64,000 nt of DNA, from contig NZ_CP060139.1 in assembly GCF_014524565.1 (NCBI RefSeq), positions 3,727,501 to 3,791,500 on the forward strand, read 5' to 3'. The position numbers and the translations under genes are program-made. Origin of the DNA: Croceimicrobium hydrocarbonivorans (GTDB taxonomy: Bacteria; Bacteroidota; Bacteroidia; Flavobacteriales; Schleiferiaceae). Numbering within the stretch: position 1 is the stretch's first letter; each line of letters begins with the position of its first letter. This document shows positions 10,928 through 60,124 of this stretch, one piece after another. A model generated the notes under the pieces. The model worked only from the letters and a program-made list of their open reading frames with translations. It did not search any database and was not told the DNA's origin.

Positions 10928-12499
10928 ATGATTCGAAATTTATTCCTGCTACTGGCGATAGTAAGCCTAAGCCCAATAGCCGAGGCTCAGTCCTACAGAG
11001 TGTTTTTTACCGATAAAGGATCCAGTGAGCATTTATTGGAGCATCCCGAATTGCTATTGAGCGAAGCAGCTTTGCTGCGTAGGAGTATGCAAGGCATTGC
11101 AATTGATCACAGCGACTTGCCAGTGGCTCCAGAATACCTTAAGCAGATTCAAAGAATGGGAGGAGAGCTTAAAGCTCATTCTCGTTGGCTTAATTATGCT
11201 TTTGTAGAAGGCTTAAGTGCTCAAGATTTAGAAGCCTTGCCCTTTGTAAAACGCTTAGAATACCCCAAGAAACATCAAAGTTATTTGGCAGGCACACAAG
11301 CCCAGTTCGACTATGGTTTAGGAACCACTCAGGTGGAGCTTTTAAATGGAGATGCTCTTCATCAGGCCGGATATACAGGAAGAGGAGTTACGATTGCCGT
11401 TATTGATGCCGGTTTTACGGGGGCCCTGCAGGCAGCAGTTTTAGATAGTTTGAGGCAAAGCGGTCGTTTAATGGGCTCCTGGAGTTTTATTAATGGTGAT
11501 ACCAATGTTTATTCTGGTCAGGGTGGTCATGGAGCCTCTGTTTTATCAGTAATGGCAGCCTTGGACACCGGTGTATTTGTTGGAACTGCTCCCCACGCCA
11601 ACTATTGGTTGCTGACCTCAGAGAACGTAAGTTCAGAAACTCCGGTAGAAATGGATCATTGGCTGATGGCCGCTGAATTTGCAGATAGCGTTGGTGCGCA
11701 TGTTATTAATACCTCCTTAGGTTATACCACCTTTGATGATACTACCGATAATTTCGATTACAGTGATATGGATGGTAACACAACGGTGGTTACTCGTGCT
11801 GCGGATTGGGCCGCATCTAAAGGAATTGTAGTAGTTGCCAGTGCAGGTAACGAAGGTGCAGGTTCCTGGCAACGAATTGGAGCCCCTGCCGATGGGGATA
11901 GTGTTTTGGCAGTAGGAGCTACTGATGGCATGGGGAATTATGCCAACTTTAGCAGCCGCGGTCCTTCTTATGATTGGCGCGTAAAGCCCGATGTATCGGC
12001 TATGGGAGCAGGAACCACATTGATAAATATTGTGGGTCAGGTTTCCAGTGGATTTGGAACTAGTTTTTCATCCCCCTGTATTGCGGGTATGGCGGCCTGT
12101 TTAGTGCAAGCGAAGCCCAATGTGCATGGGGAGGAAATAGCTTGGAAAATTCGCCGCAGTGGCCATTTATTTTCGACTCCGAATAATACACTGGGATATG
12201 GTATTCCAGATTTTGAATTTGCTTTAAACATTGGTCTGGAAGAGGACCCGATGGCTTTAAAAGCCGAGGTATACCCTAATCCTGTTAATGATAAGGTATA
12301 TATCCAGGGTGATTTTAATCGTGGTCAGAAAATTCAAATAGCTATTTACAATCAAGCCGGCCAACAGTTAATGGCGGTGGAGCGAAATTGGCAGAATCAA
12401 TTGGAAATGCTGGATCTTGCGCAATTAAGTCCTGGAATCTATTTCTTGAATATCCATTCTGATTCCATGTCACATCAGCTTAAGCTTGTGAAGAAATGA
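10928..12499 (+). CDS. secreted S8 subtilisin-like protease with T9SS type A domain
   Basis: A 523-residue exported protease. A signal peptide (about 1-20) is followed by a pro-region and a subtilase domain. The catalytic triad is D160 (AVIDAGF), H201 (GGHGASVLS) and S379 (GTSFSSP), with oxyanion N308 in SAGNEG. The end carries a type A sorting domain, VYPNPVNDKVYI then AGQQLM and LSPGIYFLNI, so it should cross the outer membrane by the T9SS and be anchored or released outside. Its last four bases (ATGA) overlap the nitronate monooxygenase start. The host protein and substrates are unknown. Confidence 0.93.
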   Translation: MIRNLFLLLAIVSLSPIAEAQSYRVFFTDKGSSEHLLEHPELLLSEAALLRRSMQGIAIDHSDLPVAPEYLKQIQRMGGELKAHSRWLNYAFVEGLSAQDLEALPFVKRLEYPKKHQSYLAGTQAQFDYGLGTTQVELLNGDALHQAGYTGRGVTIAVIDAGFTGALQAAVLDSLRQSGRLMGSWSFINGDTNVYSGQGGHGASVLSVMAALDTGVFVGTAPHANYWLLTSENVSSETPVEMDHWLMAAEFADSVGAHVINTSLGYTTFDDTTDNFDYSDMDGNTTVVTRAADWAASKGIVVVASAGNEGAGSWQRIGAPADGDSVLAVGATDGMGNYANFSSRGPSYDWRVKPDVSAMGAGTTLINIVGQVSSGFGTSFSSPCIAGMAACLVQAKPNVHGEEIAWKIRRSGHLFSTPNNTLGYGIPDFEFALNIGLEEDPMALKAEVYPNPVNDKVYIQGDFNRGQKIQIAIYNQAGQQLMAVERNWQNQLEMLDLAQLSPGIYFLNIHSDSMSHQLKLVKK

Positions 12500-13440
12500 A
12501 GAATAGAATAAAGGAATTATTCGGCATTGAAATCCCTATCATTCAAGCTGGAATGATTTGGTGCAGCGGTTGGGAATTAGCCAGTGCGGTATCCAATTCC
12601 GGTGCCTTGGGCATTATAGGAGCGGGATCCATGTATCCGAATATTCTGAGAACGCATATTCAAAAATGTAAAGCAGCAGTAGGAGGAAAGCCCTTCGCGG
12701 TGAATGTGCCTATGCTTTATCCTCAGATTGAGGAATTAATGGCTATCATTATAGAGGAGCAAGTACCGATAGTATTTACTTCTGCGGGTAATCCTAAAAC
12801 TTGGACCGCTCATTTAAAGGAGAAGGGCATTAAGGTGGTGCATGTAGTGAGCTCACTGAAATTTGCCTTAAAAGCTGAAGCAGCGGGTGTGGATGCCGTT
12901 GTTGCCGAAGGCTTTGAAGCAGGAGGACATAATGGTCGCGATGAAACGACCAGTCTTGTTTTGTGGCCTATGGTAAGTCAAGCCTTGCAAATTCCTATGA
13001 TTGCTGCCGGTGGCATAGCAAGTGGACAGCAAATATTAGCTGCTTTTGCTTTAGGAGCAGAGGCAGTTCAAATAGGTTCACGTTTTGTGGCCAGTGAAGA
13101 AAGTTCTGCCCATCAGGCTTTCAAGCAAGCTGTAATTGATGCCGAGGAAGGGGACACTATGCTTACCTTAAAGGAACTTGCTCCCGTTCGTTTGATTAAA
13201 AATGAATTTTTTCAACAGGTGCAACAGGCCTATATCAAGGGAACAACTAAAGATGAACTTCAACAAATCTTGGGAAGAGCCCGAGCAAAAAGAGGAATGT
13301 TCGAAGGTGATTTAATTGAGGGAGAGCTTGAGATTGGCCAGGTAAGTGGTATGATTAAGAATCTAAAACCAGCACGAGAAATCGTAGAAGAACTCTGGCA
13401 AGATTTCGAAAATCATAAACAAGCACTTCGCGAAATCTGA
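12496..13440 (+). CDS. nitronate monooxygenase family FMN enzyme
   Basis: A 314-residue TIM-barrel flavoenzyme of the nitronate monooxygenase (2-nitropropane dioxygenase) family. Visible motifs are PIIQAGM (14-20), SAVSNSGALGIIGAG, a catalytic-type histidine in EGFEAGGHNGRDE (about 140-152), AAGGIASG, and GAEAVQIGSRF for FMN phosphate binding. It should oxidise alkyl nitronates; the family also includes FabK-type enoyl reductases, but the GGHNG block favours the monooxygenase. It overlaps the subtilase by four bases. No terminator was found in the 98 bases before the next gene, which has its own promoter. Confidence 0.88.
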   Translation: MKNRIKELFGIEIPIIQAGMIWCSGWELASAVSNSGALGIIGAGSMYPNILRTHIQKCKAAVGGKPFAVNVPMLYPQIEELMAIIIEEQVPIVFTSAGNPKTWTAHLKEKGIKVVHVVSSLKFALKAEAAGVDAVVAEGFEAGGHNGRDETTSLVLWPMVSQALQIPMIAAGGIASGQQILAAFALGAEAVQIGSRFVASEESSAHQAFKQAVIDAEEGDTMLTLKELAPVRLIKNEFFQQVQQAYIKGTTKDELQQILGRARAKRGMFEGDLIEGELEIGQVSGMIKNLKPAREIVEELWQDFENHKQALREI

Positions 13441-13491: not shown

Positions 13492-13522
13492 TTGCCAAGC
13501 CATCCGTTATAGAATATATTTG
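13492..13522 (+). promoter_or_regulatory. promoter of surface-protein copy 1
   Basis: TTG at 13492-13494 and TATATTTG at 13515-13522, 20 bases apart. A related leader, TATTTGAAAAC then TATTTTCG, precedes copy 2 (about 17070-17092), showing the start region was partly shared between copies. Confidence 0.65.
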
Positions 13523-13538
13523 AAACAAATATTTTCGG

Positions 13539-16500
13539 ATGTCTAAGTTTAAATTGTGGTTTATAGCCTTATTGGCAACCGCATCATTTACCAGTCAAGC
13601 TTCGCATTTATTAGGTGGAGAGATTTACTGGGAATGTACGCCCAGTGGACAATACATATTTACGCTAACTCTGTATAGAGACTGTACTGGTATTGCAATT
13701 CCTACTGGTACTCAAACCTTAACGGGGCCAGCTACTATTTCTTGTACTTATATCCCTGCACTTTCTGGTGATGTGTCGCCGGATTGCCCGAACACTGCTT
13801 TGGACTTACAATGTTCTTCCGGTGATGATGGTGCGATTGAAAAAGGGGTGTACCGCAGTTCACCCGTAAGTTTAAATGGTATCCCACCTGCAGGTGGATG
13901 GGAGTTTGCTTGGACCTCCTGTTGTCGCCCTACTTTGGAGAATACCAATGCTTCAGGTTATTATCTACGTTCTAAAATGTATCCTTATACTCCTCCGGGT
14001 TCCAGCCAACCCTTAAACACGAGTACCTGTTATGACAATAGCCCAGTATTTGCACAGGATGCCAATGCGGTAACCTGTCCTAACTTCTTATTTGAGTTTA
14101 ACCACCTTCCTGCGGATAAGGATATTGATAGCTTGGTGTTTGATTGGGGGCATCCTTGGGATGCGGCTAACAGTAATATTATTTTCAGTACTGGATATTC
14201 TCATGTTGCCCCATTCCCTGATGGAACTGAAGACCCTAATAATGGACCTAATACCTTGGACCCTTCTTCTGGAGAGATCACTGCCTTGGCTAATAACCCC
14301 AATGATGGTTGGTATGCTTCCTGTGTGGTAATTAAGGAATACCGTTGTAATCAGTTGATTGGTGAGGTATATCGAGATGTGCCTTTGTATTATCTGGATG
14401 CCGTGGATTGCCCAACCAACCCGAGTACTCCTTCTGCGGAGATCGATACGTCGATTTATCAGAACGTGCAGCGTAGCGGTAATGTGTATCGCATTCGTAC
14501 CTATCCTCAGGATACGGTTCAGTTTAGAGTAGTAGCCCGAGATTTAGATCAGTTTGCCAATGGTTCTTTCCAGCAGATTTGTATGAAAGCGGGCGGACTG
14601 CAATTGAACAGTGATAACTACGCCAGTAACTCTGGCTGTAATGGAGCAGCACCTTGTGCAACCTTAACCTCTTTCAACTCTACCGGAACCTATTGTAGTG
14701 TAATCCAGAACACGGTTGAGTTCTTTTGGGTACCTGATTGTGTGCACTTGAACTTTGGTGGTTGTGGAACGGCATCGAATACCTATTTCTTTACCGTACG
14801 AATGGAGGATGATGGTTGTGCCGCACCGAAAGTAGGTCTTGCGACGATTATCGTAGAAGTAATTGCGGGTGATCCGACCCCTCCGGGACTAAGTTGTACG
14901 GATGTTCAGCAAGATGGCTCGATCCGCTTGGGTTGGAGTCAGCCAGAACTGGATAGTGTTTTAGAGTTCAACTATTATCGTATTTATGGATCCTCCTCTC
15001 CTGGAGGCCCCTGGACAGTAGTAGACAGTATTCCTCATTATGATACCTTGAGCACCGTCGTTGCGTCTCAAGGGAATGTGAGCTACTTCTATATGGAGAT
15101 GAGTACGGGTCCATGTGACTTTATCTCATTACCGAGTCAGGTAGTATCAACGATGACGATGACCATGACGGCGATACCACCCAACAGCCCAGAGATCGCT
15201 CAACTGAGTTGGACACCCTTAAATGGTACGGGCTTAAACCCGATCCGCGGTAATATCTACGAAGTATGGGTAGAAGCCCCGGAGGGTAGTGGCAACTGGC
15301 AAAAGATAGGAGAGACTACCAATACCAGCTTTACGGATACCGTAAGTGTTTGTGATATGTTGGTGTCCTATCAAGTGCGTGTACCAGATACAGTAGTGGG
15401 TTGTTATTCCGGCTCTAGTCAAGATACGGGCCGCTTCCAGGATCGCACGAATGTGTCAAATGTTAGCCTGGGTCGCGTATTGGTAAATCAGAACAACAAA
15501 GCGATGGTAGAGTTTGAGTCTACCCAGTTTGAAGATATCGTAGAGTTCTATTTATTCTATAATGATCCGCAAAATGGCTGGGTGATAGTAGATACGATCG
15601 ATGCGGGAACAGCTATGCCTTACGAATGGGCAGACTCGGATGCGGGTAGCCATTCAGAGCAGTTTAAGATCGTATCGGTAGACAGTTGTGGGAACCAGAG
15701 TGATGATTTAGCGGTAAGTCCTTACAATACAATTTACCTGCGTAACTATCTGAACAAATGTGAGGGTTATTCCCGCATCAGCTGGAATGCCTATAAAGAG
15801 TTCCCTAATGGGGTGCATGAGTACCGCGTATGGGTACAAATTACCGAGCCCGATGGCACAGTGATTCCTCCGACTATCTTATTTACTGCCAGTCCAACGG
15901 ATACGAGCTTCCGTCAGAATGTGATTAGGAAGGATTATGAGTATTGCTATGTGATAGAAGCTCGAGATACGATCGCGAACTTAAGCTCTACTTCGAACAC
16001 AGTATGTGTAGAAGCGGCAGTGCCACAGCAATCGGAGCAGTTGTACATCGCTAAGGTGACCAATGATCCAAGTCGTAACTCCTTAGACATTAGTATTTAC
16101 ATTGATGGTCAGGCGGATGTCCGCAGCTTCCAGATCCAAAGAGCGCCCGAGTACTATGGACCTTATCGTACGATAGCAACAGTAGGTAAGCCAACGGCTC
16201 CTCCTTATATCATCTCTTTCCAAGACTTTGGCGTAGAGCCCAGTAAGTTTAATTACTTCTACCGTGTAACGGCAACCGATAGCTGTGGAGGCTATGATAC
16301 CATTAGTAATATCAGCTCAAACATGAAGTTGGAGGTAAGAGCAGCAGAGGATGTAACCAATCGTTTACGCTGGAACGCCTACTTCGGCTGGGGAGGCTAT
16401 GTAGATCGATATGAGATTTACCGTCGTCCTGCAGATGGCTTTAACTGGGAAAAGGTAGGTGAGAACGTAACCATTAATGGTCGTCAGGATACCACTTGGA

Positions 16501-16940
16501 TCGATTATGATATTGCCGATTTAGTGAAGGCTGATCCTACTGCCGGTGAATACTGTTATTATGTGAAAGCTGTAGAAGGAGGGAACCCACAAGGTATTGT
16601 TGATAATCAGGGTAACCCGATGACAGCGATCTCCAATCAGTCCTGTGCTCAGCAAGAAGCGAAGGTATACTTAGCCACGGCTTTCCGCCCAGGAAGCTCG
16701 ATAGGAGAGAACCAAACCTATGGACCATCCATGCGCTTGAATGAGGTAGAGAACTACCACTTCTATATCATGAACCGTTGGGGAAAGAAGGTATTTGAGA
16801 CCAATAATCCTGAGGAAAGATGGGATGGAAGTTATGAAGGTAATGATGCACCTCAAGGTGTGTATATCTACTATATTAAGTTCCAAACTCCTGGTGGATC
16901 CGAACAAGAAGAACGAGGGAATCTAACCCTGGTTCGATAG
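13539..16940 (+). CDS. giant T9SS type B surface protein, tandem copy 1
   Basis: An 1,133-residue secreted protein. After the signal peptide (about 1-21) comes SHLLGGEIYWECTPSGQY then LTLYRDCTG, an N-terminal block frequent in Bacteroidota proteins of the gliding-motility class. The body holds many paired cysteines and several fibronectin type III-like beta domains (for example GSIRLGWSQPELDSVLEFNY and LRWNAYFGWGGYVDRYEIYR). The last 85 or so residues (YIMNRWGKKVFETNN, RWDGSYEGN, APQGVYIYYIKF) are a type B, CHU_C-like T9SS sorting domain. It should be exported and displayed on the cell surface, probably as an adhesin; the ligand is unknown. It is nearly identical to copy 2 within the mature region. 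Confidence 0.9.
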   Translation: MSKFKLWFIALLATASFTSQASHLLGGEIYWECTPSGQYIFTLTLYRDCTGIAIPTGTQTLTGPATISCTYIPALSGDVSPDCPNTALDLQCSSGDDGAIEKGVYRSSPVSLNGIPPAGGWEFAWTSCCRPTLENTNASGYYLRSKMYPYTPPGSSQPLNTSTCYDNSPVFAQDANAVTCPNFLFEFNHLPADKDIDSLVFDWGHPWDAANSNIIFSTGYSHVAPFPDGTEDPNNGPNTLDPSSGEITALANNPNDGWYASCVVIKEYRCNQLIGEVYRDVPLYYLDAVDCPTNPSTPSAEIDTSIYQNVQRSGNVYRIRTYPQDTVQFRVVARDLDQFANGSFQQICMKAGGLQLNSDNYASNSGCNGAAPCATLTSFNSTGTYCSVIQNTVEFFWVPDCVHLNFGGCGTASNTYFFTVRMEDDGCAAPKVGLATIIVEVIAGDPTPPGLSCTDVQQDGSIRLGWSQPELDSVLEFNYYRIYGSSSPGGPWTVVDSIPHYDTLSTVVASQGNVSYFYMEMSTGPCDFISLPSQVVSTMTMTMTAIPPNSPEIAQLSWTPLNGTGLNPIRGNIYEVWVEAPEGSGNWQKIGETTNTSFTDTVSVCDMLVSYQVRVPDTVVGCYSGSSQDTGRFQDRTNVSNVSLGRVLVNQNNKAMVEFESTQFEDIVEFYLFYNDPQNGWVIVDTIDAGTAMPYEWADSDAGSHSEQFKIVSVDSCGNQSDDLAVSPYNTIYLRNYLNKCEGYSRISWNAYKEFPNGVHEYRVWVQITEPDGTVIPPTILFTASPTDTSFRQNVIRKDYEYCYVIEARDTIANLSSTSNTVCVEAAVPQQSEQLYIAKVTNDPSRNSLDISIYIDGQADVRSFQIQRAPEYYGPYRTIATVGKPTAPPYIISFQDFGVEPSKFNYFYRVTATDSCGGYDTISNISSNMKLEVRAAEDVTNRLRWNAYFGWGGYVDRYEIYRRPADGFNWEKVGENVTINGRQDTTWIDYDIADLVKADPTAGEYCYYVKAVEGGNPQGIVDNQGNPMTAISNQSCAQQEAKVYLATAFRPGSSIGENQTYGPSMRLNEVENYHFYIMNRWGKKVFETNNPEERWDGSYEGNDAPQGVYIYYIKFQTPGGSEQEERGNLTLVR

Positions 16941-16960
16941 TGATCCAAAATATTTGAAAC

Positions 16961-16998
16961 AAGAAAGGCTCCTAATTCAGGAGCCTTTCTTGCTTTTA
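16961..16998 (+). terminator. rho-independent terminator after copy 1
   Basis: A 13-base stem (AAGAAAGGCTCCT against AGGAGCCTTTCTT) with a five-base loop, followed by a T-rich tail. It separates copy 1 from copy 2, so each copy appears to be transcribed separately. Confidence 0.85.
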
Positions 16999-17100
16999 AG
17001 GAATTAGTCAATTTATGCGCTTTAAATGTTTAGAAGGGCACCTTTACTAATCCACCCTTCCATATTAATTATTTGAAAACTATTTTCGAGGAAATTTTTC

Positions 17101-20100
17101 ATGGGCATGAACTGGATCAAATCTATCCTCTTTTCTGTACTAGCAATTTTGTTTGCGGGTAACTTGCAAGCATCGCACCTTTTAGGAGGGGAAATTTACT
17201 GGGAATGTACGCCCAGTGGACAATACATATTTACGCTAACTCTATACAGAGACTGTACGGGAGCTAACATTCCTACTACTCCGCAGTCTCTATCAGGCCC
17301 TGCTAATATTATTTGTAATTATATACCCGCACTTTCTGGTGATGTGTCTCCCGATTGCCCGAACACTGCTTTGGACTTACAATGTTCTTCCGGTGATGAT
17401 GGTGCGATTGAGAAAGGGGTATACCGTAGTGCACCGGTAAGTTTAAATGGTATCCCACCTGCAGGGGGCTGGGAGTTTGCTTGGACTTCCTGTTGTCGTC
17501 CTTCTTTGGAGAATACCAATGCCTCTGGTTATTATCTACGTTCTAAAATGTATCCTTATACTCCTCCGGGTTCGAGCCAACCTTTAAATACGAGTACCTG
17601 TTATGACAATAGCCCAGTATTTGCTCAGGATGCCAATGCAGTAACTTGTCCTAACTTCTTATTTGAGTTTAATCACCTTCCTGCGGATAAGGATATTGAT
17701 AGCTTGGTTTTTGACTGGGGACATCCTTGGGATGCGGCAAATCAAAATATTACTTTTGGGACTGGCTATCAATACACGGCACCCTTCCCTGACGGAAGTG
17801 AAGACCCTAATAATGGACCTAATACCTTGGACCCTTCTTCTGGAGAGATCACTGCCTTGGCTAATAACCCTAATGAAGGCTGGTATGCTTCCTGTGTGGT
17901 AATTAAGGAATACCGTTGTAATCAACTGATTGGTGAGGTATATCGAGATGTACCTATTTATTATCTGGATGCCGTGGATTGCCCAACCAACCCGAGTACT
18001 CCTTCTGCGGAGATCGATACGTCGATTTATCAGAACGTGCAGCGTAGCGGTAATGTGTATCGCATTCGTACCTATCCTCAGGATACGGTTCAGTTTAGGG
18101 TAGTAGCCCGAGATTTAGATCAGTTTGCCAATGGTTCTTTCCAGCAGATTTGTATGAAAGCGGGTGGACTGCAATTGAACAGTAATAATTATGCTTCCCA
18201 AACGGGCTGTAATGGTGCGGCACCTTGTGCGACTTTAACCTCTTTCAACTCTACCGGAACCTATTGTAGTGTAATCCAGAACACCGTTGAGTTCTTCTGG
18301 GTACCTGATTGTGTGCACTTGAACTTTGGTGGTTGTGGAACGGCATCGAATACCTATTTCTTTACCGTACGAATGGAGGATGATGGTTGTGCTGCTCCTA
18401 AGGTAGGTCTGGCTACGATCATTGTAGAAGTAATTGCGGGTGATCCGACCCCTCCGGGACTAAGTTGTACGGATGTTCAGCAAGATGGCTCGATCCGCTT
18501 GGGTTGGAGTCAGCCAGAACTGGATAGTGTTTTAGAGTTCAACTATTATCGTATTTATGGATCCTCCTCTCCTGGAGGCCCCTGGACAGTTGTAGACAGT
18601 ATTCCTCATTATGATACCTTGAGCACCGTCGTTGCGTCTCAAGGGAATGTGAGCTACTTCTATATGGAGATGAGTACGGGTCCATGTGACTTTATCTCAT
18701 TACCGAGTCAGGTAGTATCAACGATGACGATGACCATGACGGCGATACCACCCAACAGCCCAGAGATCGCTCAACTAAGTTGGACGCCTTTAAATGGTAC
18801 GGGCTTAAATCCGATCCGCGGTAATATCTACGAAGTATGGGTAGAAGCCCCGGAGGGTAGTGGCAACTGGCAAAAGATAGGAGAGACTGCCAATACCAGC
18901 TTTACGGATACCGTAAGTGTTTGTGATATGTTGGTGTCCTATCAAGTACGCGTACCAGATACAGTAGTGGGTTGTTATTCTGGCTCTAGTCAAGATACGG
19001 GCCGCTTCCAGGATCGCACGAATGTGTCAAATGTTAGCCTGGGTCGCGTACTGGTAAATCAGAACAACAAAGCGATGGTAGAGTTTGAGTCTACCCAGTT
19101 TGAAGATATCGTAGAGTTCTACTTATTCTATAATGATCCGCAAAATGGCTGGGTGATTGTAGATACGATCGATGCGGGAACAGCCATGCCTTACGAATGG
19201 GCAGACTCGGATGCGGGTAGCCATTCGGAGCAGTTTAAGATCGTATCGGTAGATAGCTGTGGGAACCAGAGTGATGATTTAGCGGTAAGTCCTTACAATA
19301 CAATTTACCTGCGTAACTATCTGAACAAATGTGAGGGTTATTCCCGCATTAGCTGGAATGCCTATAAAGAGTTCCCTAATGGGGTGCATGAGTACCGCGT
19401 ATGGGTACAAATTACCGAGCCCGATGGCACAGTGATTCCTCCGACTATCTTATTTACAGCCAGTCCAACGGATACGAGCTTCCGTCAGAATGTGATTAGG
19501 AAGGATTATGAGTATTGCTATGTGATAGAAGCTCGAGATACGATCGCGAACTTAAGCTCTACTTCGAACACAGTATGTGTAGAAGCGGCAGTGCCACAGC
19601 AATCGGAGCAGCTGTACATCGCTAAGGTGACCAATGATCCAAGTCGTAACTCCTTAGACATTAGTATTTACATTGATGGTCAGGCGGATGTCCGCAGCTT
19701 CCAGATCCAAAGAGCGCCCGAGTACTATGGACCTTATCGTACGATAGCAACAGTAGGTAAGCCAACAGCTCCTCCTTATATCATCTCTTTCCAAGACTTT
19801 GGCGTAGAGCCCAGTAAGTTTAATTACTTCTACCGTGTAACGGCAACGGATAGCTGTGGTGGCTATGATACCATTAGTAATATCAGCTCTAACATGAAGT
19901 TGGAGGTAAGAGCAGCAGAGGATGTAACCAATCGTTTACGCTGGAACGCCTACTTCGGCTGGGGAGGCTATGTAGATCGATATGAGATTTACCGTCGTCC
20001 TGCAGATGGCTTTAACTGGGAGAAGGTAGGTGAGAACGTAACCATTAATGGTCGTCAGGATACCACTTGGATCGATTATGATATTGCCGATTTAGTGAAG

Positions 20101-20511
20101 GCTGATCCTACTGCTGGTGAGTACTGCTATTATGTGAAAGCTGTAGAAGGAGGGAACCCACAAGGTATTGTTGACAATCAGGGTAACCCGATGACAGCCA
20201 TCTCCAATCAGTCCTGTGCTCAGCAAGAAGCGAAGGTATACTTAGCTACGGCCTTCCGCCCAGGAAGCTCGATAGGAGAGAACCAAACTTATGGACCCTC
20301 CATGCGCTTGAATGAGGTAGAGAACTACCACTTCTATATCATGAACCGTTGGGGTAAGAAGGTATTTGAGACCAATAACCCTGAGGAAAGATGGGATGGA
20401 AGTTATGAAGGTAATGATGCACCTCAAGGTGTGTATATCTACTATATTAAGTTCCAAACTCCTGGTGGATCCGAACAAGAAGAACGAGGGAATTTATCCT
20501 TAGTTAGATAA
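17101..20511 (+). CDS. giant T9SS type B surface protein, tandem copy 2
   Basis: An 1,136-residue paralogue of copy 1 with the same order: signal peptide, SHLLGGEIYWECTPSGQY block, cysteine-containing beta domains, Fn3-like repeats and a type B T9SS domain. From about residue 285 to the last few codons only a handful of residues differ from copy 1. The signal peptide (MGMNWIKSILFSVLAILFAG) and both flanks are unrelated to copy 1. Differences cluster at about 50-65 and 180-200. Around nucleotides 18088-18216 its DNA matches copy 3 better than copy 1, a sign of gene conversion. A second ATG at 17107 could also be the start. It is likely an alternative or dose-raising version of the same adhesin. 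Confidence 0.9.
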   Translation: MGMNWIKSILFSVLAILFAGNLQASHLLGGEIYWECTPSGQYIFTLTLYRDCTGANIPTTPQSLSGPANIICNYIPALSGDVSPDCPNTALDLQCSSGDDGAIEKGVYRSAPVSLNGIPPAGGWEFAWTSCCRPSLENTNASGYYLRSKMYPYTPPGSSQPLNTSTCYDNSPVFAQDANAVTCPNFLFEFNHLPADKDIDSLVFDWGHPWDAANQNITFGTGYQYTAPFPDGSEDPNNGPNTLDPSSGEITALANNPNEGWYASCVVIKEYRCNQLIGEVYRDVPIYYLDAVDCPTNPSTPSAEIDTSIYQNVQRSGNVYRIRTYPQDTVQFRVVARDLDQFANGSFQQICMKAGGLQLNSNNYASQTGCNGAAPCATLTSFNSTGTYCSVIQNTVEFFWVPDCVHLNFGGCGTASNTYFFTVRMEDDGCAAPKVGLATIIVEVIAGDPTPPGLSCTDVQQDGSIRLGWSQPELDSVLEFNYYRIYGSSSPGGPWTVVDSIPHYDTLSTVVASQGNVSYFYMEMSTGPCDFISLPSQVVSTMTMTMTAIPPNSPEIAQLSWTPLNGTGLNPIRGNIYEVWVEAPEGSGNWQKIGETANTSFTDTVSVCDMLVSYQVRVPDTVVGCYSGSSQDTGRFQDRTNVSNVSLGRVLVNQNNKAMVEFESTQFEDIVEFYLFYNDPQNGWVIVDTIDAGTAMPYEWADSDAGSHSEQFKIVSVDSCGNQSDDLAVSPYNTIYLRNYLNKCEGYSRISWNAYKEFPNGVHEYRVWVQITEPDGTVIPPTILFTASPTDTSFRQNVIRKDYEYCYVIEARDTIANLSSTSNTVCVEAAVPQQSEQLYIAKVTNDPSRNSLDISIYIDGQADVRSFQIQRAPEYYGPYRTIATVGKPTAPPYIISFQDFGVEPSKFNYFYRVTATDSCGGYDTISNISSNMKLEVRAAEDVTNRLRWNAYFGWGGYVDRYEIYRRPADGFNWEKVGENVTINGRQDTTWIDYDIADLVKADPTAGEYCYYVKAVEGGNPQGIVDNQGNPMTAISNQSCAQQEAKVYLATAFRPGSSIGENQTYGPSMRLNEVENYHFYIMNRWGKKVFETNNPEERWDGSYEGNDAPQGVYIYYIKFQTPGGSEQEERGNLSLVR

Positions 20512-20542
20512 TATTTATTTAGTGCGAATAAATACTGAAATG

Positions 20543-20572
20543 GCTCGCCTTTGTGCGGGCTTTTTCTTTTTT
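20543..20572 (+). terminator. terminator after copy 2
   Basis: GCTCGC (20543-20548) pairs with GCGGGC (20555-20560) including one G-U pair, followed directly by a long T-rich run. Confidence 0.75.
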
Positions 20573-20681
20573 AACGGAGCTGTAAAATGCTTTGATCTTT
20601 AACAACTTCAAATGGGTGTTACACTCATTGGGCTTATGATAATCAACATAGGCCTAATACTTTTAAGGAAAATTATTCCCT

Positions 20682-23600
20682 ATGAAACACCTGAAGATTA
20701 GCCTAATTTTATTTCTGACTTTTATAATAAGTCCGCTTTCCGCGTCTCATTATTTAGGGGGAGAAATATATTGGGAATGCACCCCTAATGGTCAGTATAT
20801 ATTCACTTTAACTTTGTATCGTGATTGTACAGGTTCTACTATTTTAACTAACCCAAAAACCATCGTTGGACCTGTAAATATTGTCTGTAATTATGTAGCC
20901 AGTTTATCCGGTGATGTATCTCCTCAATGTCCGAATACTGCACTGGATTTAAATTGTGCCGATGGAGATCCAGGTTCAATAGAAAAGTATGTTTTTCGTA
21001 GTGGTCAGGTATCTTTAAATGGAATACCGCCTGCTACAGGTTGGGAATTCAGCTGGACAGGCTTTGCTCGTCCATTTTTAGAAAATGCCGGGGGAAATAC
21101 CGGTTATTACCTGCGCTCAAAAATGTTCCCTTATACCGATCCCAATTTAGGGACTTTGAATACCAGTACTTGTTACGATAACAGTCCGGTATTTGCTCAG
21201 GATGCCAATGCGGTAACTTGCCCTAACTTCTTGTTCGAGTTTAACCACCTTCCTGCGGATAAAGATATTGATAGCCTGGTATTTGATTGGGCCATGCCTA
21301 AATTGGGAGCAAATCAAAATATAGCATTTAATAATGGCTACAGTCCTACGGCACCTTTCCCTGATGGAAGTGAGGATCCTAACAATGGACCTAATACTTT
21401 AGATCGTTTTTCTGGAGAGATAACCACTTTAGCAAATAATCCTAGTGATGGCTGGTATGCCTCTTGTGTGGTAATACGCGAATACCGTTGTAATCAGCTG
21501 ATTGGAGAGGTATATCGGGATGTGCCTGTTTATTATTTAAAGGATGAAGATTGTCCTGTAAACCCAAGTACCCCTTCTGCTGAAATTGATACATCGGTTT
21601 ATCCCAATGTAAGTCGCAGTGGTAATATTTATCGAATTCGAACTTACCCCAAAGATACGGTTCAGTTTAGGGTAGTAGCCCGAGATTTAGATCAGTTTGC
21701 CAATGGTTCTTTCCAGCAGATTTGTATGAAAGCAGGAGGACTGCAATTGAACAGTAATAATTATGCTTCCCAAACGGGCTGTAATGGTGCAGCACCCTGT
21801 GCAACCTTAACCTCATTTAATAGCTCCGGAACCTATTGCAGCGTTATTCAAAATACGGTGGAGTTTTTCTGGGTACCTGATTGTGTGCACTTAAACTTTG
21901 GAGGCTGCGGTACCGCTTCGAATACCTATTACTTCACCGTACGAATGGAGGATGATGGTTGTGCTGCTCCTAAAGTTGGTTTGGCGACGATCATTGTTGA
22001 TGTAATCGCGGGTGATCCCACGCCGCCGGATTTAAGTTGCTCCGATGTGCAAGTGGATGGTTCCATAAAACTTAGTTGGAAGCAACCGGAATTGGATAGT
22101 GTACTCGAGTTTAATTACTATCGTATCTATGGTGCATCATCACCTGGCGGACCCTATACGGTGATAGATAGCATTCCCCATTTTGATACTCTTACTACCA
22201 CTGTTCCCTCCCAGGGAAATAGCAGTTACTTCTTTATGGAGATGAGTACCGGTCCATGTGATTTTATCTCGAAACCTAGCGATATCATCAGTCCAATGCA
22301 ATTAACGCTTACTCCTATTCCACCGAATAGCCCGGAGTATGCCCAATTGAATTGGACCGCACATAATGGCTCGGGTCTAAACCCCTTACGCGGAAATATC
22401 TATCAAATTTGGAAAGAAGCACCCGCCGGCAGTGGGGATTGGATTAAAGTAGATTCGACAACCAGTCTCGATTACATTGATACCGTTAGTGTATGTGATA
22501 TGCTGGTGAACTATCAAATTAGAGTTCCCGATACCGTTGTAGATTGCTATTCCGGCTCTAGCCAGGATACCGGTCGATTCCAGGATTTAACCAATGTGGA
22601 AGATGTGGATTTGGTTCGGGTCTTTGTGAATGAGGATAATAAGGCAGCAGTTGAATTTGATTCGGATTCCATTAAAGATATTGTTGAATTCTACTTAATC
22701 TTTAATGATCCATTAAATGGTTGGGTAATCGTAGATACCATTCCTGCCGATGAGCCAATGCCCTATGTTTGGGATGCCTCTATGGCGGATACCCGCTTTG
22801 AGCAATTTAAAATCCTATCGGTAGATAGCTGTGAAAATGCCAGCGATGATTTGGCGGTGAGCACTTTCAATACGGTATATGCACGCAATTATCTGAATAA
22901 ATGTGAGGGTTATTCTCGTATTAGCTGGAATGCCTACAAAGAGTTCCCTAATGGAGTACATGAATACCGCGTATGGGTGCAAATTACCGAGGATGATGGT
23001 ACCCAATTGCCACCTACAATCTATTTCACTGCCAGTCCAACGGATACCAGCTTCCAACAAAATGAATTGAAGAAGGATTATATCTATTGTTATGTGATTG
23101 AAGCCAGAGATACAATTGCAGATCTGAGCTCCACCTCAAATTCGGTTTGTGTAGAAGCGGCTGTACCTCAGCAGTCAGAGCAATTGTATATCTCTAAAGT
23201 AACGAATGACTTCAGCCGCAATGCCTTAGATGTGAGCGTTTATGTTGATGGAGATGCGGATGTTCGCAGCTTCCAGGTACAAAGAGCACCTCAGTTCTAT
23301 GGTCCTTATCAAACCATTGCTACCATGGCTAAGCCACAAGCACCACCTTATATTCTGTCCTTTCAGGATTTTGGAGTTGAGCCCAATCAGTTCAATTATT
23401 ACTACCGTTTAACAGCTATAGATAGCTGTGGTGGTTACGATACCATTAGTAATATCTCCACTAACCTTAGATTGAATGTAAGTGCTGCGGAGGATGTAAC
23501 GAATCGCCTAAGCTGGAATACCTATATCGGCTGGGATGGTTATGTGGAACGCTATGAGATCTACCGCAGACCCGCAGATGGCTTTAATTGGAAGAAAGTG

Positions 23601-24086
23601 GGTGAGAACATTACGGTTGATGGCCGTGAAGACACCACTTGGATTGACTATGAGATTGCTGATTTGGTAGAAGCCAATCCAATTGAAGCAGGAGCCTATT
23701 GCTATTATATTAAAGCCATTGAAGGTGGAAACCCTCAGGGGATAGTAGATAATCAAGGTAACCCGATGAGTGCATTTTCCAACCAGGCCTGTGCACAGCA
23801 AAATGCCAAAATATATATGGCAACAGCTTTCCGTCCGGGTAGTAGTATTGCCGAAAATCAAACTTATGGTCCATCGATGCGCCTAAATGATGTGGATAAC
23901 TATCACTTCTACATTATGAATCGTTGGGGAAAGAAAGTTTTTGAAACCAATGATCCTGATGATCGCTGGGATGGAACCTATGAAGGCAACCAGGTTCCTC
24001 AAGGGGTTTATGTGAGCTATTTAAAGTTCCAAACCATAGGTGATCAGGAAGTTGAGGAACGTCAGTCTTTTACCCTTATCCGCTAG
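20682..24086 (+). CDS. giant T9SS type B surface protein, tandem copy 3
   Basis: An 1,134-residue third paralogue, clearly homologous over its whole length but more diverged than copies 1 and 2. It has a signal peptide, SHYLGGEIYWECTPNGQY, the same cysteine pattern, Fn3-like domains and a type B sorting domain (YIMNRWGKKVFETND, RWDGTYEGN, PQGVYVSYLKF). Differences include SWTGFARPFLENAGG where the others have WTSCCRP, so two adjacent cysteines are lost. DNA identity with copies 1 and 2 rises sharply at about 21660-21800, giving a patchwork. No clean TAnnTTTG element is seen before its ATG. A terminator follows. Confidence 0.9.
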   Translation: MKHLKISLILFLTFIISPLSASHYLGGEIYWECTPNGQYIFTLTLYRDCTGSTILTNPKTIVGPVNIVCNYVASLSGDVSPQCPNTALDLNCADGDPGSIEKYVFRSGQVSLNGIPPATGWEFSWTGFARPFLENAGGNTGYYLRSKMFPYTDPNLGTLNTSTCYDNSPVFAQDANAVTCPNFLFEFNHLPADKDIDSLVFDWAMPKLGANQNIAFNNGYSPTAPFPDGSEDPNNGPNTLDRFSGEITTLANNPSDGWYASCVVIREYRCNQLIGEVYRDVPVYYLKDEDCPVNPSTPSAEIDTSVYPNVSRSGNIYRIRTYPKDTVQFRVVARDLDQFANGSFQQICMKAGGLQLNSNNYASQTGCNGAAPCATLTSFNSSGTYCSVIQNTVEFFWVPDCVHLNFGGCGTASNTYYFTVRMEDDGCAAPKVGLATIIVDVIAGDPTPPDLSCSDVQVDGSIKLSWKQPELDSVLEFNYYRIYGASSPGGPYTVIDSIPHFDTLTTTVPSQGNSSYFFMEMSTGPCDFISKPSDIISPMQLTLTPIPPNSPEYAQLNWTAHNGSGLNPLRGNIYQIWKEAPAGSGDWIKVDSTTSLDYIDTVSVCDMLVNYQIRVPDTVVDCYSGSSQDTGRFQDLTNVEDVDLVRVFVNEDNKAAVEFDSDSIKDIVEFYLIFNDPLNGWVIVDTIPADEPMPYVWDASMADTRFEQFKILSVDSCENASDDLAVSTFNTVYARNYLNKCEGYSRISWNAYKEFPNGVHEYRVWVQITEDDGTQLPPTIYFTASPTDTSFQQNELKKDYIYCYVIEARDTIADLSSTSNSVCVEAAVPQQSEQLYISKVTNDFSRNALDVSVYVDGDADVRSFQVQRAPQFYGPYQTIATMAKPQAPPYILSFQDFGVEPNQFNYYYRLTAIDSCGGYDTISNISTNLRLNVSAAEDVTNRLSWNTYIGWDGYVERYEIYRRPADGFNWKKVGENITVDGREDTTWIDYEIADLVEANPIEAGAYCYYIKAIEGGNPQGIVDNQGNPMSAFSNQACAQQNAKIYMATAFRPGSSIAENQTYGPSMRLNDVDNYHFYIMNRWGKKVFETNDPDDRWDGTYEGNQVPQGVYVSYLKFQTIGDQEVEERQSFTLIR

Positions 24087-24109
24087 AAAGGTTAAGGCGA
24101 TTTCAAGTA

Positions 24110-24140
24110 GCCTCTCCCGAAAGGGAGGGGCTTTTTTATT
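24110..24140 (+). terminator. terminator after copy 3
   Basis: GCCTCTCCC and GGGAGGGGC form a nine-base stem around a GAAA tetraloop (24110-24131), followed by TTTTTT and an AT-rich tail. Confidence 0.88.
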
Positions 24141-24206: not shown

Positions 24207-24236
24207 CGCGCAATTTAATTCTAATTGCACCGCTCT

Positions 24237-25712
24237 ATGTCAACTTTCAGTGATAAAATCATGGGTGAAGGTTTAACCTATGATGATGTACTTCTCGTAC
24301 CGGCCTATTCTCAAGTGTTACCACGCGAAGTTGATCTTTCCAGCAAATTCACGCGTAATATCAGTCTTAAAACGCCCATTATCTCTGCGGCGATGGACAC
24401 CGTAACCGAAGCCACTATGGCAATCGCAGTTGCGCAAGATGGAGGTATCGGAGTATTGCATAAAAACATGACCATCGAGCAACAAGCGGTGGAAGTACGC
24501 AATGTAAAGCGTGCCGAAAGTGGAATGATCCTCGATCCGGTAACCTTACATGAAAATGCACTGGTTAGCGATGCCAAGAAAATGATGGCCGATTACCGCA
24601 TTGGAGGTATTCCTATTGTTAATGATCAGAAGAAACTGATTGGTATTATTACCAACCGCGATTTGCGTTTCGAAAAGAATGATCTACGCCCCTTGGCAGA
24701 AATCATGACTAAAGAGGGTTTGGTAACCACCTTTGAGAATACCAGCCTCGCAGAAGCAGAAGTAATTCTGCAAAAGCATAAAATTGAAAAATTACCGGTA
24801 GTAGATAAGGATAATCATCTGATTGGTTTGATTACTTATCGTGATATTACCAAATCTCATATTAAGCCTAATGCCAATAAAGACGATTATGGTCGTTTGC
24901 GGGTTGCAGCAGCAGTAGGAGTTACCCCGGATGTTTTGGATCGCGTAACGGCTTTAGTAGAGTCTAATGTGGATGCCATTATAATTGATACAGCCCATGG
25001 CCACAGTGCCGGGGTAGTAAAAGCCTTAGAAGCGGTTAAAGCTAAATTCCCTAAACTGGATGTGGTAGTAGGTAATGTGGCTACGGCTTCAGCAGCGCGT
25101 TATTTGGCGGATGCCGGTGCCGATGCTATTAAAGTTGGAATTGGCCCTGGTTCTATCTGTACTACTCGTGTGGTAGCAGGAGTAGGGGTGCCTCAACTTA
25201 CCGCGGTAATGGAGGCTCGTAAAGGCCTTGAAGGAACAGATGTTCCCCTTATCGCTGATGGTGGTATTCGCTTTACTGGAGATATCGTAAAGGCCATCGC
25301 CGCTGGTGCCGATACCGTAATGTTGGGATCACTGTTGGCAGGAACTAAAGAAGCTCCGGGTGAAACTATTATCTACGAAGGTCGTCGATATAAGACTTAT
25401 CGCGGAATGGGATCTATCGAGGCCATGCAACAAGGTTCCAAGGATCGTTATTTCCAGGATGTGGAAGACGATATCAAGAAATTAGTTCCGGAAGGTATTG
25501 TTGGCCGAGTTGCTTATAAAGGTGAAGTAGGTGAAGTGATGTACCAATTTATTGGTGGTTTGCGTGCCGGAATGGGATATTGTGGCGCTGCAGACATTGC
25601 TACTTTACAAAAAAATGGCACCTTCGTGCGAATTACGGCCGCAGGCGTACATGAAAGCCATCCACATGATGTGCACATTACCCGCGAATCACCAAACTAT
25701 AGCCGAAAATAA
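24237..25712 (+). CDS. guaB: IMP dehydrogenase GuaB
   Basis: A 491-residue cytosolic enzyme that oxidises IMP to XMP with NAD+, the first step to GMP. The TIM barrel starts [11 protein letters not shown] and is interrupted by two CBS domains (about 96-205) that regulate the enzyme through purine nucleotides. The catalytic cysteine is C308 in [10 protein letters not shown]. The flap/active-site region [10 protein letters not shown] and GVEGRV-like IVGRVAYKG are present. A TTG start 12 bases upstream is possible, but the [12 protein letters not shown] fits the family. It begins the operon-like run guaB, three chaperone genes and moxR, though a promoter between guaB and the next gene was not searched exhaustively. 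Confidence 0.97.
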
Positions 25713-57042: not shown

Positions 57043-58560
57043 ATGAAGCGTACTTTTTGTATAGTTTTCTTTTTCCAATTCATGGTAGCTCCCAGCTATG
57101 CTCAAACTTTTAACTTAAAGAGTTACGCAAATCGGCTGGATATTTTTGGTTCACCGGCTATGCTAGTTGAGGATAGCGTGCTGTACAGCTTTTCTATGAT
57201 AGATGGTAGTCATACAGCTTTCACCTATAAGAAGTTTTCACGTCAAGGGCAACTTTTAGATTCTAATTACTACGATGTACAGGAAAAGGGAATTAGCCTT
57301 ATTGGGATGAGGCGAAACATGCTACAGCGAATCAGTGGTTCCTCACTTTTATGCGTTCAGGATTTTTTTAATTCGGCTCGTGATACGACATTTCCCAGAT
57401 TATATAAGATAAATAATGATTTAGATACGCTTTATTCTGTGAAATTGGATTTACCCGGAACTACTGAGGTTAACTCCTTTGATGTTTTAGTGGATTCCAA
57501 TCAAATCGTCCTGCTTGGGCATTATGCTAATATAGATCTGCAACTGGGCTTGTATATAGCCCGCTATGATACTGCCCTTAACTTGTTGGGCTATTCAACT
57601 ATACGCGACTTCAGACCCATCTATACTCCTGGTTATGGCCATGCCTACTTTCCATACCGATTAAGGAGAATGGCGGATAACTACTACATCACTGGGCGTT
57701 GTTTTTATGTCCATAAGTTTGTAGAGAGTTTTTTAGTTAAAACGGACTTACTAGGAAATAAAATTTGGGATAAGCGCTACAAGTATCTAGACTCTAATAC
57801 GGTTAGTTTTGAAATTCTTCCAATAGGCCAAGACAGTTTGTTTCAGGCATCAATTTATCGAAGTAAATATATAAATGGGAATGGCTATAATAGGGCCATT
57901 TTTAGAGTTTTGGATTCAAATTGCAATGTATGGGATTCGATTGTTTACCCTGCGGAAGAAACGCAGTTTGAGTTTACCAATGCAATACGTTCGGCGGATG
58001 GTGCTATTCTTTTAACAGGCTTTTATTACCTGGACGGTACAAAAGGTTTTATTTGGAAACTAGATAAAAATTTGAATACTATTTGGCGGCGCGTCTATTA
58101 CCATGGAGATTGGGAAGATAGTAGCTGGCTTTATAATATTGATCAGTGGAATGATGATGGAATTATTACAACCGGAACTTATTTCGATCGGTACTTAAAC
58201 CCGAGCCCTTACAGTGTATATGTTTGGCTATTAAGCCTTGATGACTCTGGTTGTTTAGGAGCTGGAGATTGTGGCTCTGATATAAGCTTTGTGGAATGGG
58301 TTTTACCCGAACAGGGTTTGAGCGTGTATCCAAATCCGGCACATGATTACCTGAACCTTGAAATGGGACTTCCTGAATGTCAAAATATGCAGGGAACTGC
58401 TCACATTTTTAGTTTGGATGGTGAGCTTGTTTTAGAGGAAAAAGTTCAATTCTTCCAAGGGAAATTACGATTGGATGTAAGTAAGCTTAATCAAGGTCAG
58501 TATGTTTTGGAGCTGAAAACTAATACAAGCTTGTTTATGGTTAGGGTTCTAATTCACTAA
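57043..58560 (+). CDS. secreted T9SS protein, mosaic tandem copy A
   Basis: A 505-residue exported protein I do not recognise. Signal peptide about 1-20 (PSYAQ), then beta-strand-rich sequence with evenly spaced YDTAL, WKLDKNLNTIWRR and similar blade-like repeats, suggesting a beta-propeller. A type A T9SS domain ends it (VYPNPAHDYLNLEMGL, LNQGQYVLELKT). Residues about 28-248 are almost identical to copy B, residues about 250-330 are diverged, then YHGDWEDSSW to CGSDISFVEW is again near-identical, and the sorting domain differs. The start region has no clear promoter. Confidence 0.8.
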   Translation: MKRTFCIVFFFQFMVAPSYAQTFNLKSYANRLDIFGSPAMLVEDSVLYSFSMIDGSHTAFTYKKFSRQGQLLDSNYYDVQEKGISLIGMRRNMLQRISGSSLLCVQDFFNSARDTTFPRLYKINNDLDTLYSVKLDLPGTTEVNSFDVLVDSNQIVLLGHYANIDLQLGLYIARYDTALNLLGYSTIRDFRPIYTPGYGHAYFPYRLRRMADNYYITGRCFYVHKFVESFLVKTDLLGNKIWDKRYKYLDSNTVSFEILPIGQDSLFQASIYRSKYINGNGYNRAIFRVLDSNCNVWDSIVYPAEETQFEFTNAIRSADGAILLTGFYYLDGTKGFIWKLDKNLNTIWRRVYYHGDWEDSSWLYNIDQWNDDGIITTGTYFDRYLNPSPYSVYVWLLSLDDSGCLGAGDCGSDISFVEWVLPEQGLSVYPNPAHDYLNLEMGLPECQNMQGTAHIFSLDGELVLEEKVQFFQGKLRLDVSKLNQGQYVLELKTNTSLFMVRVLIH

Positions 58561-58609: not shown

Positions 58610-60124
58610 ATGAAATATTTCTCATACATATTAATATTTCTCTTTTTAACAGGAGGCTCCAGCTATGCCCAGACCTTTGACATAAAGAGCTACTCAAATC
58701 GGCTTTCAACTACTGGTTCACCCGCAATGTTAGTTGAGGATAGCGTGCTGTACAGCTTTTCTGTGGTAGAAGGTAATCGCACGGCTTTCACCTATAAGAA
58801 GTTTTCGCGCCAAGGGCAACTTTTAGATTCTAATTACTACGATGTACAGGAAAAGGGAATTAGCCTTATTGGGATGAGGCGAAACATGTTACAGCGAATC
58901 AGTGGTTCCTCACTTTTATGCGTTCAGGATTTTTTCAATCCGACTCATGATACGGCATATCCTAGATTATATAAGATAAACAACGATTTAGATACACTCT
59001 ATTCTGTAAAATTAGATTTACCTGGAACCACCACTATAAACTCCTTTGATGTTTTAGTGGATTCCAATCAAATCGTCCTGCTTGGGCATTATGCTAATAT
59101 AGATCTGCAACTAGGCTTGTATATAGCCCGCTATGATACTGCCCTTAACTTTTTGGGCTATTCAACTATTCGCGACTTCAGGCCCATCTATACTCCTGGT
59201 TATGGCCATGCCTACTTTCCATACCGATTAAGGAGAATGGCGGACAACTACTACATAACTGGTCGTTGTTTTTATGTCCATAAGTTTGTAGAGGGCTTTT
59301 TGGTTAAAACGGATTTGCAGGGAAATAAAATTTGGGATAAGCGCTACCAGTACATGGGCTTAAATGGACTGGATGCAAGTGTGGTTCCCATTGGGCATGA
59401 TAGTTTATTTATTCCTCACTATTTTCTATCATCTCAAGATAGTGGAGTAGATAAAGGAAAGGCAATTTTCAGGATAGTTGACACATCAGGTGTAGTCCTT
59501 AATGACAGTGCTTATTCTGATGAAGAAGCCTATTTTACAATAGAGTGCGCATGGCAAAAAGGTGGGTTTATTTATGTGATAGGGAATTATTATCTGGAAG
59601 GGGAAAAAGGTTTTGTCTGGAAGCTAGATAAGGGCTTAAATACCATTTGGCGACGTGTTTATTATCATGGTGATTGGGAAGATAATAGTTCGCTCTATAG
59701 TGCAGATCATTGGGGGGATAAGGGTATCATAGCAACCGGAACCTATTTCGATCGATACTTAAATCCGAGCCCTTACAGTGTATATGTTTGGCTATTAAGC
59801 CTTGATGACTCTGGTTGTTTAGGATCTGGAGATTGTGGCTCTGATATAAGTTTTGTGGAATGGGAGCTACCCAATCAGCAACTTAATCTCTACCCAAATC
59901 CAACGCAGGGTCTTATTAATCTAGAGATTTCTAATTCTGAATTGAAGGATGGTCTTGCGCACATCAGAATTTTTGAGCTTTCCGGGAAGAAGGTTTATGA
60001 TACTGATGTTCTTTTTCTTGCTAATCAGTTCCATTTAAATTTAGGCTCATTGCATCCCGGTCAATACATTATTGAAGTGAAAACTGATAGTCGTTTATTC
60101 TTAGAAAGGCTAGTGGTGAATTAA
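58610..60124 (+). CDS. secreted T9SS protein, mosaic tandem copy B
   Basis: A 504-residue paralogue of copy A, 49 bases downstream, with its own signal peptide (MKYFSYILIFLFLTGGSSYA). The first half is nearly identical to copy A down to the DNA. Residues about 250-330 (YMGLNGLDASVVPIGHDSLF and following) are very different from A, and the sorting domain (LYPNPTQGLINLEI, LHPGQYIIEV) also differs. The product should be exported by the T9SS. No terminator is visible after the stop; the next gene is convergent 67 bases on. Confidence 0.8.
   Translation: MKYFSYILIFLFLTGGSSYAQTFDIKSYSNRLSTTGSPAMLVEDSVLYSFSVVEGNRTAFTYKKFSRQGQLLDSNYYDVQEKGISLIGMRRNMLQRISGSSLLCVQDFFNPTHDTAYPRLYKINNDLDTLYSVKLDLPGTTTINSFDVLVDSNQIVLLGHYANIDLQLGLYIARYDTALNFLGYSTIRDFRPIYTPGYGHAYFPYRLRRMADNYYITGRCFYVHKFVEGFLVKTDLQGNKIWDKRYQYMGLNGLDASVVPIGHDSLFIPHYFLSSQDSGVDKGKAIFRIVDTSGVVLNDSAYSDEEAYFTIECAWQKGGFIYVIGNYYLEGEKGFVWKLDKGLNTIWRRVYYHGDWEDNSSLYSADHWGDKGIIATGTYFDRYLNPSPYSVYVWLLSLDDSGCLGSGDCGSDISFVEWELPNQQLNLYPNPTQGLINLEISNSELKDGLAHIRIFELSGKKVYDTDVLFLANQFHLNLGSLHPGQYIIEVKTDSRLFLERLVVN

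Follow-up and report, generated by a model that had tools for sequence, protein, structure and literature searches.

The 64,000-nucleotide stretch of Croceimicrobium hydrocarbonivorans DNA analysed here (contig NZ_CP060139.1, positions 3,727,501 to 3,791,500 of the forward strand; hereafter the window) carries a tandem array of three giant genes, c1, c2 and c3, whose products are predicted cargo of the type IX secretion system (T9SS). These giants very probably reflect recurrent concerted evolution, in which gene conversion has acted on an old tandem pair. Bodies are homogenised within genomes at a locus of conserved synteny, 5′ flanks and promoters of first copies descend by position, synonymous codons diverge at the edges of the homogenised block, and the genes contain mosaic tracts. 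The underlying event would be conversion rather than repeated double crossover, with recombination enzymes involved.

13539..16940, + strand: c1, class a, 1133 residues, predicted T9SS type B cargo (open reading frame, ORF; sorting-domain matches)
17101..20511, + strand: c2, 1136 residues (ORF; b-like 5′ flank, a-like 3′ flank)
20682..24086, + strand: c3, class b, 1134 residues (ORF; 5′ flank and tree with G001_z, a later copy in the nearest relative)

c1 and c2 share a near-identical body inside unrelated ends

In 60-column sliding windows, c1 and c2 were 0.92-1.00 identical over positions 13632-16925, apart from three windows (0.65 at 13692, 0.65 at 14169 and 0.77 at 14589). Identity in leaders and flanks was 0.43-0.67, and spacers, leaders and 3′ ends look unrelated. 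Comparison of c3 with either c1 or c2 gave 0.52-0.95 per window, with one window at 1.00. The original prediction of near-identical bodies inside unrelated signal peptides, leaders and flanks was thereby confirmed, as the three genes showed neither uniform divergence nor flanks as alike as the bodies. The block and the stretches that depart from it are as follows.

13623..16922, + strand: homogenised block in c1 (junction sequences, window identity)
17194..20493, + strand: homogenised block in c2, the same 3,300 nucleotides (junction sequences)
13659..13778, + strand: island 1 in c1, which escaped homogenisation and includes the Ile/Ala site at alignment column 56 (two 60-nucleotide bins with 28 c1/c2 differences; recurs in other genomes)
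14139..14258, + strand: island 2 in c1, within alignment columns ~205-245 (24 differences in two bins; recurs in other genomes)
14619..14678, + strand: stretch where c2 resembles c3 (c2 equals c3 at 10 of 13 c1/c2 differences)

The predicted spacing of one difference per 50-100 bases fits the last two thirds of the block (35 differences in 2040 positions, 14859-16898) but not the first third, where 114 differences in about 1260 positions (13599-14858) cluster at 13659-13778, 14139-14258 and 14619-14678. Between c1 and c2, variable third positions agree over an unbroken run of up to 96, a length reached in 2 of 5000 shuffles; the yardstick, a run of 21 between the positional orthologs c3 and G001_z, gave 0.029.

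In c1 the block spans codons 29 to 1128. The motifs that immediately flank it, SHLLGGE and L(T/S)LVR, are identical or almost identical at the protein level but are written in different synonymous codons, which fits recombination and not protein constraint. Conversion had been proposed to be restricted to the exported part; this holds roughly, as the block begins 7 codons into the presumed mature protein and finishes 5 codons short of the stop, but internal stretches escape and so does most of c3.

Homogenisation recurs within genomes of the genus

We compared the locus across the genus, each species in the collection being represented by a single genome (G001 is the nearest relative). First copies are labelled _a and later copies _b (or G001_z); c1, c2 and c3 correspond to W_1, W_2 and W_3. 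The locus proved syntenic, and bodies were homogenised in five of the six comparable genomes (this one, G003, G004, G005 and G006, with two whole copies on one contig each). In 30-codon windows, identity between copies was 92-100% over columns 570-1109 in G003, 89-100% over 630-1109 in G004, 100% over 450-1139 in G005 and 100% over 150-1109 in G006, compared with mostly 60-88% for positional comparisons between species in the same windows. In a tree of the C-terminal part, c1/c2, the G003 pair and the G004 pair each grouped at 100/100, while the G005 and G006 pairs formed identical rows. Forcing the five first copies into one clade was rejected (approximately unbiased test, p-AU 1.8e-46, identical rows left free). 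In the N-terminal tree, c3 grouped with G001_z, G002_b and G004_b at 100/100; the signal-peptide tree was mostly unresolved (1 of 12 inner branches starred).

Strong protein constraint, holding mature parts alike while signal peptides drift, would be in keeping with the many residues that are invariant across the giant family. Synonymous sites refute this explanation, which retains next to no chance of being right: besides the codon differences at the block edges, fourfold sites of the C-terminal part are nearly identical within genomes (differences at 3/314 in G005, 2/295 in G006 and 21/299 for c1/c2, rising to 44/295 in G003 and 86/295 in G004) but differ at 129-152 of 203-257 sites (53-71%) in eight positional pairs between species. 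The c3/G001_z orthologs differ at 131/267 (49%). Since c1/c2 at 7% are far closer than this, their homogenisation looks younger than the split between c3 and G001_z.

The gene order mnmA, T9SS subtilase, fabK, giants, guaB, PPIase is whole on one contig here and in G003-G006, and was recovered in pieces from G001 and G002. All seven genomes of the genus hold two giants or parts of two, with three in this genome; contigs of G001 end inside the giant locus, so that its apparent copy number is provisional. The immediate neighbours in the window are:

12496..13440, + strand: fabK-like enoyl reductase, the conserved neighbour upstream (scores 305 bits, short of the equivalog cut-off of 453)
24225..25712, + strand: guaB (IMP dehydrogenase), conserved downstream neighbour (family match, synteny)

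An assembly artefact, with reads of two copies merged, would suit the 100% identical blocks of G005 and G006, both metagenome-assembled, and the G001 contigs that end inside the locus. It is nevertheless extremely unlikely as the source of the signal. This genome and G003 have single contigs with copies that differ at many sites; here c1, c2 and c3 lie on one 4,035,598-base contig and differ at 192 positions among those aligned in all three.

Relatives of 616-696 residues elsewhere in G001-G005 match the first half of the giant only, at 36-43% identity, and G005 holds two such half-length relatives in tandem (for example G005:C1:1511994-1515401).

Flanks and promoters follow position

Divergence of the 5′ flanks runs in the order reverse to that of the bodies. 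By z-scores of alignments, each set against 100 shuffles, the c1 5′ flank matches first copies of its relatives (G001_a 30.9; G002_a, G003_a and G004_a 9.0-10.3; G005_a 4.6; G006_a 5.3) and that of c3 matches G001_z (34.8). Matches amount to 109/120 for c1/G001_a and 108/120 for c3/G001_z, whereas there is almost no alignment between the 5′ flanks of c1 and c2 (z 2.4). If each species had simply duplicated the gene recently, and leaders and flanks had then been replaced or diverged fast, within-genome pairs would also cluster in the body tree, and the nearly identical leaders of the G050 copies indicate that fresh duplication occurs in the family. The reversed order of flanks and bodies, the syntenic array, and first-copy 5′ flanks and promoter common by position to seven genomes make such duplication very improbable; the repeated gene conversion originally proposed is well supported.

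A putative promoter accompanies first copies:

13492..13522, + strand: sigmaA-type promoter TTG-N20-TATATTTG of c1 (equal spacing in all seven genus first copies)

The pattern TTG-N20-TATATTTG was present in 7/7 first copies of the genus, with the box 24-29 bases before the start, and in 0/8 later copies; TANNTTTG was likewise found upstream of 0/8 later copies. The motif TAnnTTTG is the sigmaA -7 box of flavobacteria (PMC9723704). Among shuffles, 7% carried TANNTTTG and 3.5% the looser TTG-spacer-TANNTTT. Looser -7-like boxes (TAnnTTT or TAnTTTA, around -22 to -27) precede several later copies, which we do not claim to be promoterless. Outside the genus, 22 copies were examined and 2 showed the full pattern (that of G015, the nearest genome with a single copy, and G023_a), while 3 more could not be placed. 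A sigma70-type promoter scan gave no excess over shuffles (22 vs 24.2).

Repeated unequal crossover, expanding and contracting the array, might homogenise copies in place of conversion; the loci compared hold one to three giants, and c2 looks like a crossover product. Such exchange would, however, carry spacer and leader along, yet the similar bodies of c1 and c2 sit between dissimilar spacers, and in 7/7 genomes it is the first copy that has the class a promoter. We therefore regard it as improbable and favour gene conversion.

Each copy is also followed by a hairpin:

16957..16995, strand unassigned: strong inverted repeat after c1, possible terminator (listed on the - strand by the scan; on the + strand CTTTT follows the hairpin)
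20542..20561, + strand: terminator-like hairpin after c2 (terminator scan)
24109..24132, + strand: terminator-like hairpin after c3 (terminator scan)

Separate expression from own terminators, as suggested earlier, is plausible given a hairpin after each copy and the first-copy promoter class, but the terminator scan over the whole region showed no excess over shuffles (8 vs 8.9), and the hairpins are accordingly described here and not claimed as proven.

The pattern as a whole very probably arose from an old tandem pair of ~1130-residue T9SS cargo genes, class a beside fabK and class b beside guaB. Homologous recombination between these direct repeats would copy body sequence from gene to gene, as recurrent ectopic gene conversion. 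Because conversion needs homology, it would stop where diverged leaders and flanks begin, so that promoters, signal peptides and spacers descend by position.

The second copy has flanks of both classes

The third copy in this genome probably stems from an older unequal crossover between a and b, which would have joined a b-type 5′ end to an a-type 3′ end in a gene whose body was later homogenised with c1. c2 is probably that product. Its 5′ flank matches b copies (z 6.7 with G003_b, 5.3 with G004_b, 4.2 with G002_b) and its 3′ flank a copies (6.9 with G003_a, 5.2 with G004_a, 3.8 with G002_a), while the 3′ flank of c3 is b-like (10.6 to G003_b), which is the pattern expected from such a crossover. 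The motif CTAAW stands at -54 in c2 and at -55 to -61 in all five b copies of G002-G006; it occurs somewhere in -95 to -45 in 19% of shuffles. As the spacers have since diverged, the crossover would be old, and homogenisation of the c2 body with c1 would have followed it.

On sequence evidence, exchange has also touched class b:

14514..14588, + strand: 75-nucleotide stretch that c2 and c3 share without a mismatch and c1 with a single one; 4-5 of the 75 positions differ in G001_z (alignment, run tests)

Run tests gave 0 of 5000 shuffles for c2/c3 and 0.0016 for c1/c3. Beside this stretch, at columns 330-340, G001_z is nearer to c1/c2 (2 of 30 differ) than to c3 (8 of 30).

Tandem loci outside the genus are mostly not homogenised

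A scan of genome contigs with a single protein query recovered no relatives, and an alignment-based scan then gave at least 76 loci. Among the matches listed, guaB lies nearby in 36 of the 76 loci, drawn from many Bacteroidota; contig ends truncate many of these loci. A family search matched 84 of 88 genomes at 1e-60, most rows showing one match. Eight tandem loci outside the genus are not homogenised (G008, G014, G021 with a partial copy, G023, G036, G040, G051 and L103), which indicates that tandem arrangement alone does not force homogenisation. In genus g9, the first copies of G014 and G051 are nearer each other than their own neighbours in nearly every window, like ordinary old paralogs.

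Homogenised G009 copies share 95-100% identity beyond codon ~450 in the first piece of a broken first copy and 89-100% in the second piece. In G052, identity reaches up to 91% in mid-gene, and likeness by first-copy position holds for the first half. The frame of the G009 first copy (L051 4524-7986) is broken near residue 720, inside a stretch otherwise nearly identical to the second copy. The G050 copies (L149, L148) are alike in the leader too, 84-93% over the compared part, as after a fresh whole-gene duplication, which sets them apart from the others.

Several observations weigh against recurrent conversion. Outside the genus, G009 is clearly and G052 partly homogenised, but the other eight of ten tandem loci are not. 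Within the genus, the copies of G002, whose copy b is split over two contigs, are not homogenised (57-88% per window downstream of the leader), and G004 is homogenised in its C-terminal half only. One copy of the present array mostly stays out, as c3 clusters with G001_z and not with c1/c2, while much of the N-terminal third also clusters by genome (G003, G005, G006, c1/c2). The likeness of 5′ flank and leader is weaker among b copies, and hardly visible for G006_b. As for c2, its 5′ flank scores only 1.4 with G005_b and 0.7 with G006_b, against 4.1 with G002_a and 3.1 with G004_a, and its 3′ flank also reaches 3.5 with G006_b. Finally, the six genus relatives are metagenome-assembled, and small differences between copies could have been merged.

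The giants are predicted to form strings of immunoglobulin-like domains

All three products share one build, with a leader, an extended body rich in beta structure and, at the C terminus, a T9SS type B sorting domain, in keeping with the original prediction of three tandem T9SS giants:

16707..16937, + strand: T9SS type B sorting domain of c1 (TIGR04131, residues 1057-1133)
20278..20508, + strand: T9SS type B sorting domain of c2 (TIGR04131, residues 1060-1136)
23883..24083, + strand: T9SS type B sorting domain of c3 (above the Pfam cut-off, below that of NCBIfam)

Pfam CHU_C scored above cut-off in all three proteins and TIGR04131 in c1 and c2, with c3 below (30.5 bits vs a cut-off of 35). 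c3 is 78% identical to c2 in protein and about 75% alike to c1/c2. The hydrophobic N-terminal leader, presumably a Sec signal peptide, precedes a conserved A-SH motif and is helical at residues 5-21 of the structure model.

The model describes a string of immunoglobulin (Ig)/fibronectin type III (FN3)-like domains (predicted local distance difference test, pLDDT, 83.5; predicted template modelling score, pTM, 0.46, which leaves the overall domain arrangement unsure). Single domains of the model match known folds (for example 6mfa, Z 12.0, root-mean-square deviation (rmsd) 2.4 over 92 residues), and the family profile matches titin and FN3 chains; the Pfam fn3 model had no match at E 0.01 in the three proteins. 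The giants are thus predicted to resemble FN3/Ig-like repeat proteins in fold, as a likeness and not as membership. The predicted N-terminal domain (pLDDT 87.4) alone gave no Foldseek match at E 0.001; its best VIA-align row was cadherin-23 (Z 6.4, rmsd 2.2 over 95 residues), which may mean just a common arrangement. These features suggest that the giants act as adhesin-like surface fibres.

Copy-specific stretches persist near the N terminus

Amino-acid differences between homogenised copies recur at columns 55-75 and 214-244 across genomes. Column 56, the sole column of the mature N-terminal part that separates all six pairs, is Ile in 6/6 first copies and Ala in 6/6 second copies (c2 counted as second), with Ser in c3 and G001_z. 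In a label test of 32 a/b assignments (smallest possible p about 0.03; eight segments tried), the true labels ranked 1st for columns 50-85, 2nd for 205-245, 3rd for the leader, 4th for 245-450, 6th for 85-205 and 8th for 25-50; in the body they ranked 16th for 450-800 and 8th for 800-1110. According to the structure model, the copy-specific stretches fall mainly between strands of the predicted N-terminal domain.

These statistically weak patterns are suggestive of selection for copy-specific tips, although closeness to the 5′ edge may partly account for them and island 1 in G006 might be an edge effect. The copies had been called interchangeable. They do share a body, but full interchangeability is doubtful, as the two N-terminal stretches tend to be copy-specific across genomes; the giants are probably not fully interchangeable. 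Selection may protect these two stretches, with the common Ig/FN3-like stalk and anchor tolerated or favoured.

Other features of the window

A second tandem T9SS pair, of type A, lies at 57043-58560 and 58610-60124, with 68% protein identity. Its DNA identity is patchwork: 87-98% over 57163-57762, 93-97% over 58183-58302, 43-80% in the part separating these two and 38-57% beyond them. In G001 there is an adjacent pair, 92% and 67% identical to the first of these genes (57043-58560). A large ORF at 60192-63878 (- strand) opens with a partial Endonuclease I domain; its true start is probably beyond the window.

Discussion

The process at work is known; what is distinctive here is the combination of promoter classes by position with recurrent copy-specific islands. 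In cassette-type antigenic variation, conversion takes place between related surface-protein genes, with one expressed locus and silent, incomplete donors. Partial silent donors of this type were not seen in the array, as c1, c2 and c3 are all full-length ORFs with a leader, a sorting domain and an upstream region of their own.

The closest likeness is to recurrent concerted evolution (PMC6053082), whose Tables 1 and 2 list 26 genes with a median duration of 496 million years. As in those cases, paralogs are closer within species than positional orthologs (in five of six genomes), synteny shows that duplication predates the species, and at least five species are involved (five genus genomes and G009 of another genus). 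Unlike them, the present case shows partial conversion, islands of divergence that recur and promoter classes that follow position; T9SS cargo does not appear in the two tables. In Porphyromonas gingivalis, surface proteins, some of them T9SS-exported, are likewise reshaped by recombination or gene conversion (PMC5266723), but the stress in that account is on diversity between strains, whereas here tandem copies within a genome are homogenised. The copepod GOT1 paralogs (PMC3728101) show a similar mosaic of homogenised and divergent regions, with islands persisting despite conversion, although in a eukaryote, for an enzyme and from population data. Our literature searches (open-access papers, mostly judged by title) found no case of conversion between tandem T9SS cargo genes.

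The array offers replicated bacterial concerted evolution in surface proteins with built-in controls, since this tandem locus is homogenised in one genus but only in a minority of the others compared. In trees of such T9SS cargo, "duplications" that look species-specific are not real, and the trees should be read with this in mind. Duplicated genes that stay the same yet differ, with bodies copied while export signal and control region are kept per copy, amount to a natural experiment, which allows testing whether conversion-resistant stretches mark functionally distinct residues and promoters. It is possible, if doubtful, that the giants form a constant-body, variable-tip system, in which conversion keeps stalk and anchor common while selection protects a copy-specific promoter and the two N-terminal stretches. 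If so, the cell would change the tip of its surface fibre by promoter choice, leaving the export-competent body unchanged.

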